IMG/VR virus record: IMGVR_UViG_3300009790_000069 | Span: 1-23,948 of that record | Length of the DNA stretch: 23,948 nucleotides | Direction: 5' to 3' (one strand) | From: a virus | Shown: positions 15,399 to 18,314 of the stretch, piece after piece | Layout of the letters: each line of letters opens with the position of its first letter | Position numbering within the stretch: the stretch's first letter is position 1 | Notes under the pieces: model-generated | What the model was told of the DNA's origin: nothing | Databases searched by the model: none | Seen by the model: only the letters and a program-made list of their open reading frames with translations | Position numbers and translations under genes: made by a program

Positions 15399-15635
15399 CT
15401 AAGCTTTCTTTTTAAGAATGTGGTATAGAACTCCAGCACCTACTAATCCAAGTAGACCTTCGTTACTCAATCCACCCAATATACCCATAATGTTTTCCAC
15501 TACAGATACCTCAGGCCAGAAAGGAATCGCCGCACCTTTGAATAGTACTTCTAATACTACACCAAGAGCGATAACACTTATACCAATTTCAGTTAGATGA
15601 TTAGCCCAATCGCCAATCTTTTTAAGAAATTCCAT
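15399..15635 (-). CDS. Small membrane protein, holin-sized (78 aa)
   Basis: The 78-residue protein has an N-terminal amphipathic stretch (MEFLKKIGDWANHLTE) and a first hydrophobic helix at about 17-37 (IGISVIALGVVLEVLFKG). A Pro/Trp turn (IPFWPEVS) follows, then a Gly-rich segment (NIMGILGGLSNEG) and a second hydrophobic helix at about 61-73 (LLGLVGAGVLYHI) ending in KKKA. Two membrane segments, small size and a charged tail fit a class II holin or a small inner-membrane protein. The evidence is topology only. The gene has its own cassette: a consensus Shine-Dalgarno AGAGGAG (15642-15648) six bases before the ATG, and terminators on both sides. That implies strong, separately controlled expression. 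Confidence 0.85.
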   Translation of the reverse strand: MEFLKKIGDWANHLTEIGISVIALGVVLEVLFKGAAIPFWPEVSVVENIMGILGGLSNEGLLGLVGAGVLYHILKKKA

Positions 15636-15648: not shown

Positions 15649-15785
15649 GTTTAAAATTAATGAAAATAACTTTTCCATATTACAAAACATCGGACTTGTC
15701 CAACAATAACTATAGTATATATTTCTGAAAAAACACCTTTTTTATTTTCACACCCAATGGGCAAACAATATTAGGTGTCAAACAA
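15649..15785. other. Non-coding leader region of the 78-aa gene with inverted repeats
   Basis: No plausible gene is visible. The minus strand contains ACACC (near 15776) that could pair with either of two GGTGT copies (near 15751 and 15732), the second followed by six T. There is also a tight dyad GGAC-AA-GTCC near 15691-15700. An AT-rich TATATACTATAG stretch near 15707-15720 may hold a promoter, but it matches neither of the two promoter types found elsewhere in the window. Confidence 0.35.
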
Positions 15786-15901
15786 AAAACCCAACCTTAC
15801 GGGGGTTGGGTTTTATCCAATCACTTTGAATTACGACTGGTTGTTTAGAGCTACTAAGTTTGTCAATCTCCACACATCTGTCTACAATTGTTGAGCTCTA
15901 C
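15785..15901 (-). ncRNA. Candidate structured small RNA between carbamoyltransferase and terminator
   Basis: This non-coding stretch of about 115 nt lies between the carbamoyltransferase stop and a strong terminator. Just inside its 5' end TAGAGCT (15900-15894) is an exact inverted repeat of AGCTCTA (15852-15846), which would close a stem around 41 bases. The ATATTTATA element ends five bases upstream, about the distance expected from a -10-type element to a transcript start. The terminator hairpin (15786-15814) would form the 3' end. I see no tRNA-like T-loop or anticodon arm and no ORF. It could instead be just the structured 3' UTR of the carbamoyltransferase mRNA. Confidence 0.45.
15786..15814 (-). 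terminator. Strong hairpin terminator after the carbamoyltransferase / small RNA
   Basis: An 11-bp perfect stem (AAAACCCAACC with GGTTGGGTTTT) has a 7-base loop. On the minus strand it continues into a T run and then TTTGACACC. On the plus strand the stem also ends in TTTT, so it could work weakly in both directions. All genes here are on the minus strand, so I call it for that strand. Confidence 0.9.
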
Positions 15902-15905
15902 AATA

Positions 15906-15914
15906 TATAAATAT
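15906..15914 (-). promoter_or_regulatory. Candidate late-promoter element ATATTTATA before the small RNA
   Basis: The minus strand reads ATATTTATA, touching the last stop-codon base of the carbamoyltransferase and ending five bases before the inverted repeat that begins the candidate RNA. It is identical to the copies at 12834 and 15326. Confidence 0.4.
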
Positions 15915-17602
15915 TAGATTATTTTCTTAGAAATAAAAATATTTTCAATCACTAAGTAATCCATATCACAATTCATAAATGTATCTATTGCTTCTTGTGA
16001 ATCTCTAACCATAGTTTGGTCTTTAAGATTGAATGATGTATTGAGTAATATAGGATACTTTGTAATCTTCTGATATTCTTTTAGGAGTTTGTACATCTTA
16101 GGATTAAAATCTTCTCTAAGTGTTTGTACTCTTGCTGAACCATCAATGTGTGTAATAGCTGGTAACTTTTTTCTATACTTTGGATTAACTGAAACGATTT
16201 GATTCATATATGGTATTTCAATATTTGGTGTAAAAAAGTTTTTCATATCATCATAACAACACATAGGAGCAAATGGTCTAAATCCTTCTCTTTTCTTTAC
16301 AACCATATTTACTCTTCTTTTCATTTGTGGGTCTCTTGGGTCTGCCAAGATAGAACGGTTACCTAACGCTCTTGCACCAAACTCTAATTGACCACTAACC
16401 CAACCAATGATATTACCCTCAGATATTAGTTTAGCTACTTTAGGAAGTAACTCATTATCAGATAATGCTTCATAAAAAATCTTATTATCATTTTCTTTTA
16501 CTATACTTACTACATCTAATATTTTTTCTGATGGACCTAAGAAGGGTGATTTGTTTTGTTTCCTATCGTTTGTAATATGATTCCAATAATTAAGAGCTGC
16601 TCCAATAGCAGAACCAGCATCAGATGGCGCCGGTGGAATCCAAATATTTTTAAATGGAGTTTTACTTTGTATCTTACCATTAGCCGTTCCGTTATATGCA
16701 CATCCACCACTTAAACATAAGTTTTCAGATTTAGTTTTTTTATATAACTTATTTAGTAATTTAAAGAAATGCTTTTCATATGTGTATTGTAAAGCTGCTG
16801 ATATATTTTTGTGTATATCATTAATTGGTTCTTCGGGTAATCTATTTGGTATTTCTAATAGTTTAGATAATTTTGTATTGAACATAATCTTATCAGAATA
16901 GTGATAAGAGAAATATTCCATATTTAGTTCAAATCCATCTTCCGTTTCTTTTATTAGTTCATCAAACTTTTTATGATGAAATAGATGAGTACCATATGGA
17001 GCTAATCCCATAACTTTATACTCACCTTCGTTTGGTTTGAATCCTAAGAAAGCAGTAATTGTAGAATAAAGTAATCCCAATGAGTGTGGATATACTACTT
17101 CACTATGTCTTTTTATTATGTTATCTTTACCACTTGCTAATACAGTAGTATCCCATTCACCAACACCATCTACTGATAGTATAGCTGATTCATCAAAATC
17201 TGAGGTAAAGTATGAATATGCTAAATGAGATAGGTGATGATTACCAATGAAAACTTTAGCATTAGGAAATATGTAATCAAAATGTTCTAGTGGATTTGTT
17301 TTCTTTGGAAACTTAAATGGATTCTTCCAAAAGTATTTCCAATAAGATTTCCAATCTCTATCGTATTTTAGTTTTGGATTCTCATAGTAACATACTGCAG
17401 AAATATCTTTTCCATCAATATTGTTATTTTTCAAAATCCAATTAATAGAGTTTATTGGAAAACTATTATCGTGTTTTATACCAGTAAATCTCTCTTCTTC
17501 TACTGCGTTTAAAACTTGTCCATTCTGTATTAGTGCTACTGCAGAATCATGAAATCCATGTGAGATACCAATAATATATTTATCGTAGATGCTCTTCTTC
17601 AT
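15914..17602 (-). CDS. NodU/CmcH-family carbamoyltransferase
   Basis: The family transfers a carbamoyl group from carbamoyl phosphate, through a carbamoyl-adenylate, to a hydroxyl or amino group of a sugar or secondary metabolite. The N-terminal Kae1-like domain shows ISHGFHDSAVALI, EEERFTGIKHD, the metal-binding GNHHLSHLAYSYF and SVDGVGEWDTT. Further on are SLGLLYSTITAFLGF, GEYKVMGLAPYG, CLSGGCAYNGTANGKI and APSDAGSAIGAAL. The C-terminal YrdC-like part has GARALGNRSILADPRD and REGFRPFAPM. The length (562 aa) is normal. I prefer the ATG at 17602, which overlaps the sigma gene by 23 bases; an ATG at 17614 adds four residues. It is the last gene before a terminator. The substrate is unknown: surface sugar, virion glycan or modified nucleotide are all possible. 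Confidence 0.93.
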   Translation of the reverse strand: MKKSIYDKYIIGISHGFHDSAVALIQNGQVLNAVEEERFTGIKHDNSFPINSINWILKNNNIDGKDISAVCYYENPKLKYDRDWKSYWKYFWKNPFKFPKKTNPLEHFDYIFPNAKVFIGNHHLSHLAYSYFTSDFDESAILSVDGVGEWDTTVLASGKDNIIKRHSEVVYPHSLGLLYSTITAFLGFKPNEGEYKVMGLAPYGTHLFHHKKFDELIKETEDGFELNMEYFSYHYSDKIMFNTKLSKLLEIPNRLPEEPINDIHKNISAALQYTYEKHFFKLLNKLYKKTKSENLCLSGGCAYNGTANGKIQSKTPFKNIWIPPAPSDAGSAIGAALNYWNHITNDRKQNKSPFLGPSEKILDVVSIVKENDNKIFYEALSDNELLPKVAKLISEGNIIGWVSGQLEFGARALGNRSILADPRDPQMKRRVNMVVKKREGFRPFAPMCCYDDMKNFFTPNIEIPYMNQIVSVNPKYRKKLPAITHIDGSARVQTLREDFNPKMYKLLKEYQKITKYPILLNTSFNLKDQTMVRDSQEAIDTFMNCDMDYLVIENIFISKKII

Positions 17603-18314
17603 TCCAAAACTCATTTACATTATCTTCTATTACTTCTCCTTCTAAAAATGAATTTAACATTTTTTTCTGATGTTGTTTCATGACATTTACAACTTTTGTA
17701 ATGTAGTGAGTTTTACAATCGGTCATTTCTCTTATGAGTAAGTATAGATGTTTTTTGTTAAAATTTTCTATGTAATCTGCTCTTCTAAATAATTCTAATA
17801 CGGCATCTGCTATTTGGATATCTCTTTTCTTTGTAAATACAATAGTAAGATTTTTATCCCAATAATCTAACATTATTTTTCTAAACTCAGAATATTCTTC
17901 ATTTTGTTGAGCTTCATAATAATCATTTTGGGGATTCCAAGTTTGTGGCATTTCAGATATTAGTGCATTCTTTTGCCATCTTTTGTAATTACCATTGTTA
18001 TTTAAAATAAGATAATTTTTTGCTATAATTGTAAAATATGAAAAAGCTTTTCCTCTACCTTCTTTGAACATATGAATTTTTTCTACCATAGCAGATACTA
18101 CTTCTTTTTGTACATCTTTCTTTGGTACATCAAAGTATGTAAACTTAAATGTATTTAAAACATTTTCTGCTAACTTGTCAAAAGGATACTTTATACCTTC
18201 ATTGTATATTTTGTTTTTTTCCTTTTGGTCTGTACATTTATTGTATGCAATTATAGCCTCTTGAGCAGGCGAACCAAAATACATTTTGGATTTTTTTCTT
18301 CTTGGTCTTGGCAT
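17580..18314 (-). CDS. 55: gp55-like late-transcription sigma factor
   Basis: This is a T4 gp55-type sigma that redirects host RNA polymerase to late promoters together with a sliding clamp. The 244-aa protein starts basic (MPRPRRKKSKMYFG) and has the typical YPFDKLAENVLNTFKFTYF segment near 44-64. A sigma-region-2-like core follows (VVSAMVEKIHMF, GKAFSYFTIIAKNYLI, NNNGNYKRW) at about 88-140. The C-terminal half is helical and acidic at the end (EFWNEEEHLR), where T4 gp55 carries its clamp-binding tail. At 244 aa it is longer than T4 gp55 (185). It is three bases downstream of the 87-aa membrane protein and overlaps the carbamoyltransferase start. Its presence implies distinct late promoters elsewhere in the genome. 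Confidence 0.85.
   Translation of the reverse strand: MPRPRRKKSKMYFGSPAQEAIIAYNKCTDQKEKNKIYNEGIKYPFDKLAENVLNTFKFTYFDVPKKDVQKEVVSAMVEKIHMFKEGRGKAFSYFTIIAKNYLILNNNGNYKRWQKNALISEMPQTWNPQNDYYEAQQNEEYSEFRKIMLDYWDKNLTIVFTKKRDIQIADAVLELFRRADYIENFNKKHLYLLIREMTDCKTHYITKVVNVMKQHQKKMLNSFLEGEVIEDNVNEFWNEEEHLR

Follow-up and report, generated by a model that had tools for sequence, protein, structure and literature searches.

Between a carbamoyltransferase gene and a holin-like gene, the minus strand of the window (the whole 23,948-nt stretch analyzed here, from IMG/VR virus record IMGVR_UViG_3300009790_000069) carries a promoter-like sequence, a 7-bp inverted repeat (stem 1), a further hairpin (hairpin 2) and an intrinsic terminator (Table 1). 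An initial annotation had read this stretch as a possible phage small RNA. The promoter-like element, the 7-bp repeat around 41 bases and the 11-bp terminator it described are all present on the minus strand where it had placed them, and its remark that the interval contains no open reading frame was borne out (none of at least 40 aa). Hairpin 2, which that annotation did not name, is the evolutionarily fixed heart of the element.

Table 1 Positions of the element's parts in the window and the basis for each
Feature	Position	Strand	Basis
Promoter core ATATTTATA	15906-15914	minus	Most enriched upstream 9-mer of related contigs
Extended promoter match ATATTTATATA	to 15904	minus	Continues the ATATTTATA core
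Predicted small RNA, ~115 nt	15784-15900	minus	Kept order of parts; conservation above neighboring fourfold sites
Stem 1, 5' arm TAGAGCT	15894-15900	minus	Sequence; two compensated pairs in L221; shuffle p ~0.02
Stem 1, 3' arm AGCTCTA	15846-15852	minus	As for the 5' arm
Remnant, 3' end of deleted small secreted-protein gene	15844-15913	minus	Local alignment to L002
Hairpin 2 CCAGTCGTAATTCAAAGTGATTGG, conserved core (CCAGTC / GATTGG around GTAATTCAAAGT)	15817-15840	minus	Pairing kept among relatives
Intrinsic terminator, 11-bp stem, T run to ~15784	15786-15814	minus	Ranks first in terminator list

ATATTTATA begins on the final base of the carbamoyltransferase stop codon (TAA, 15916-15914), and five bases (TATTG) separate ATATTTATA from the 5' arm of stem 1. 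The inferred start of the small RNA falls at ~15896-15902, and its end is placed at the T run of the terminator. Of 200 dinucleotide shuffles, 199 folded less stably than this stretch (z = -2.81). The terminator heads a list in which nine were found compared to 6.3 expected, and terminators at the same place are kept in relatives.

On the downstream side, the 78-aa holin-like protein (15399-15635, minus strand) is 70-100% identical over very diverse contigs and had no match in Pfam, PHROG or INPHARED; the leader of its gene (GGACAGTCCGATGTTTTG...) is also conserved. Between the RNA terminator and this gene lies an inverted repeat, ACACCTAAT...ATTGGGTGT (15743-15779, minus strand), which is possibly an operator. 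In a related contig (L004), the same place reads ACACTCGAT...ATCGGTGT, with pairing kept through the changes. Elsewhere in the window, the gene at 17580-18314 (minus strand), presumably the late sigma gene of the initial annotation, gave no significant match to sequences in Pfam, PHROG or PDB, and its product is compatible with a gp55-like sigma factor by eye only. Among INPHARED phages we found no close match to the DNA of the region.

Promoter motif of the phage group

Using 137 upstream regions drawn from two large related contigs and the window, we identified ATATTTATA as the top enriched 9-mer, present in 40 regions compared to 1.05 expected, while its reverse complement was present in none of the 137. 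Genes behind the motif include those for the portal protein, head-tail adaptor, tail tube protein, baseplate hub, single-stranded DNA-binding protein (SSB) and nucleases. The window itself contains three sites, all on the minus strand, two of which precede genes while the third starts the small-RNA element. A T-rich stretch is usual 12-16 nt upstream of the motif; at the small RNA it is weak because the upstream DNA there is coding.

The late promoter of T4-like phages is TATAAATA, with the form NATAAATA in cyanophage S-PM2 (PMC2984593). In gene orientation, the TATAAATA consensus occurred in 0 of the 137 upstream regions, and it was not enriched in the window. Both ATATTTATA and the T4-like late promoter are short, A+T-only elements upstream of structural and other genes, but this group uses ATATTTATA in gene orientation instead of TATAAATA. 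Judged on motif evidence, ATATTTATA is the promoter motif of this phage group, and it could be used for reading transcription units in these uncultured phages.

Relation to a small secreted-protein gene

Relatives of the window were fetched via the carbamoyltransferase and the 78-aa holin-like protein. In L002, L006, L008 and others, the carbamoyltransferase gene is followed by a promoter-like sequence and then by a gene whose product, ~116 aa long, looks secreted and whose final codons correspond to the window stretch TAGAGCTCAACAATTG...TAGCTCTAAA. Local alignment of the window remnant to L002 gave a score of 70, compared to 30 for the best shuffled sequence, and relative to L002 the remnant has an in-frame TAG stop and single-base gaps. 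The L002 flanks are 94-96% identical to the window on both sides, while L002 has ~340 extra bases at the element. Given this alignment and the extra bases between near-identical flanks, the window's lineage has lost most of the small secreted-protein gene. In gene-bearing relatives, the promoter motif lies inside the reading frame of this gene and the 5' half of the RNA is, by sequence comparison, derived from its 3' end. Before the small secreted-protein gene, L002, L006, L008 and L017 also carry TTAACA-like repeats at ~11 bp spacing that resemble a PHO box.

Hairpin 2, stem 1 and conservation among relatives

A search with a degenerate hairpin-2 pattern yielded 73 viral stretches, which together with earlier finds collapsed to 53 distinct sequences; we set aside three apparent chance matches in coding DNA, leaving 50 credible alleles. 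The motif ATAYTTAY was found 19-82 nt upstream of hairpin 2 in 46 of them, compared to a background of 3.1% of random 90-nt windows, and one of the four alleles without it is cut by the contig end. A terminator stands behind hairpin 2 in nearly all alleles, although its sequence varies. This motif-hairpin-terminator layout is found next to unrelated upstream genes (L007, L011), together with an intact protein gene and after excision of the protein gene (L046, L221 and group B). Two relatives, L156 and L167, lack the whole unit downstream of the carbamoyltransferase gene, including half of the terminator.

Across 21 sequences, 97.6% of the pair cells of hairpin 2 were kept. In six of the sequences one pair has both partners replaced (UA to CG), and at two pairs a single partner differs. 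Each related record carrying the element has one strong copy of the hairpin, and no further strong copies were found within the same records. When a 16-mer and an 18-mer of hairpin 2 were used as search patterns, the nine genome_contigs matches were at about chance level, as were some of the viral matches.

Stem 1 is weak evidence by comparison. The TAGAGCT/AGCTCTA pairing emphasized by the initial annotation is genuine in the window's subgroup, where it is only modestly unusual compared to shuffled sequence (p ~0.02 for the sequence common to the window and L004). L221, which also lacks the protein gene, has TAGAGTA/TACTCTA, that is, two compensated pairs, although 67 of 500 shuffles do as well as this single sequence. 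In other subgroups the stem is absent or not significant compared to shuffles. Because the compensated pairs rest on one sequence and the other subgroups show no significance, we treat stem 1 as supporting evidence only: it is neither universal nor the conserved core of the element.

We next compared conservation of the element with that of neighboring sites. Positions 15817-15913 are 100% identical in L004, an exact match that may partly reflect recombination, and 94.8% identical in L003, while identity to the window at fourfold sites of the neighboring gene, taken over its last 233 codons, is only 74% (L004) and 73% (L003). The same pattern, with the element conserved over its neighbors, was found across many pairs in group B. 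Among twelve gene-less alleles of this group, the element is 79-100% identical, compared to mostly 43-79% at fourfold sites of the neighboring enzyme and 56-92% over the next 200 bases (ranges that set aside a few near-identical pairs).

Where the protein gene is still present, the codons that overlap the promoter and RNA start show no synonymous change among 17 gene-bearing alleles: TAT ACT TAT is found in 17/17, ATA in 16/16 and GAG in 16/16, with the invariance of TAT ACT TAT conditioned on how these alleles were picked and that of the following codons not so conditioned. Threonine codons elsewhere in the small secreted-protein gene are mixed. The initial annotation had held that, if the stretch were not conserved in related phages, it would be left as a plain 3' UTR; conservation was found, which favors a small RNA.

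Interpretation and comparison with known RNAs

Pure gene debris was our initial conclusion. On that account the stretch is a plain 3' UTR in which a decayed gene end precedes an operon terminator, the stem arose by chance from former codons and nothing is transcribed separately. It would explain why the 5' half aligns, with a stop and single-base gaps, to the last codons of a protein gene, and why stem 1 coincides with codons that are protein-coding in relatives. We dropped it on the promoter-motif and conservation tests and now consider it improbable: a promoter motif stands directly ahead of the RNA, conservation is well above that of neighboring fourfold sites and the same layout recurs in lineages with different histories. 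Frequent change of the gene between the carbamoyltransferase gene and the unit, together with deletions that end near the motif, might instead point to an element acting as DNA and not as RNA, for example a recombination junction for swapping accessory genes. A promoter, hairpin and terminator that keep one order and orientation argue against this idea, as does hairpin 2 pairing that is kept through changes on both sides, and we give it very little credence.

The usual location of the element, ~200 nt before the holin-like gene and on the same strand, would suit a cis-acting leader whose conditional terminator controls transcription into that gene. However, four alleles have 666-1217 nt between the two, and in three others the holin-like gene was not found within 2.5 kb downstream. 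Because these seven alleles have other DNA or genes next, and the element is thus not always directly upstream of the holin-like gene, a cis effect on that gene is unlikely on sequence grounds; a specific link to it is likewise unsupported, with other genes following the RNA in some relatives. In addition, the holin-like gene has, past the terminator, a conserved promoter-like sequence and leader of its own, terminator sequences change freely and no conserved alternative pairing was seen, all of which make a conditional leader a poor candidate. By eye, hairpin 2 of the window could pair with the terminator as an antiterminator, but the terminators are too changeable for such pairing to be conserved.

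We favor reading the stretch as a small-RNA gene, carried by uncultured marine phages of a T4-like group, that has its own promoter and terminator and has outlasted a deleted protein gene; we estimate the probability of this reading at roughly 75%. The phage promoter ATATTTATA would start a ~115-nt transcript just past the carbamoyltransferase stop codon, and the intrinsic terminator would end it. This RNA would consist of a variable 5' domain, represented by stem 1 in the window's phage, and the almost invariant hairpin 2. In many relatives the 5' domain would lie within the 3' end of the small secreted-protein gene, with the promoter inside the reading frame, whereas the lineage of the window has had the protein gene deleted and has retained the RNA part alone. 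Sequence comparison establishes the parts, their constant order, their conservation and their origin. The short independent transcript proposed in the initial annotation thus has good comparative support, given the promoter motif, the motif-hairpin-terminator association in 46 alleles, the conservation and the survival of the unit through gene loss. Counting against our reading are the weak T-rich stretch at the window's promoter, the small extent of covariation (one doubly changed pair in hairpin 2 and, from a single sequence, two in stem 1), the absence or non-significance of stem 1 in other subgroups, the relatives that lack the unit (L156, L167), a target search that gave nothing above background and the possible share of recombination in the identity to L004.

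With regard to function, the RNA may act in trans, with an mRNA or a protein as the target of its invariant hairpin loop. Action in trans is the better guess because other genes follow the RNA in seven alleles. When base-pairing targets were sought in two related phages, none was better than those of shuffled RNAs; glycosyltransferase genes stood near the top of the ranking for both contigs, although below significance. We give even odds to the proposal that the element represents a new family of regulatory RNAs that act in trans and are common in this phage group. Such RNAs would center on a single, nearly invariant hairpin loop for binding a conserved partner, and would persist while the overlapping protein gene is repeatedly changed or lost. 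A Bacteroidota host is indirectly suggested by the signal-peptide style seen in the small protein and by baseplate similarity to phages of Flavobacterium; the list of baseplate similarities also includes a Microcystis phage.

A covariance-model search of the window with Rfam release 15 gave no match at the gathering score, the best matches in permissive Rfam searches of three alleles fell far below gathering scores and we found no description of the small RNA in the literature. Small RNAs described from lytic marine phages are few, and the Rfam collection contains no match to this one. An RNA gene that overlaps a protein gene's end, and is still there once that gene is lost, would illustrate with unusual clarity how a free-standing small RNA can originate.

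Bacteria are known to make small RNAs from the 3' end of a gene by means of a promoter within it. Like these type I 3' UTR small RNAs, the RNA proposed here would start from a promoter that lies within a gene or at its end, and would be short and finish at the gene's own terminator. Unlike them, it would belong to a lytic-type phage, in which several lineages keep the RNA unit without the protein gene. The nearest case that we found described in the literature is CfrI of cyanophage S-PM2, a ~225-nt RNA that runs antisense to both psbA and a gene for a homing endonuclease (PMC2984593). Both would be non-coding RNAs of marine T4-like phages, but the present RNA, as predicted from sequence, is ~115 nt long, intergenic and equipped with its own terminator.
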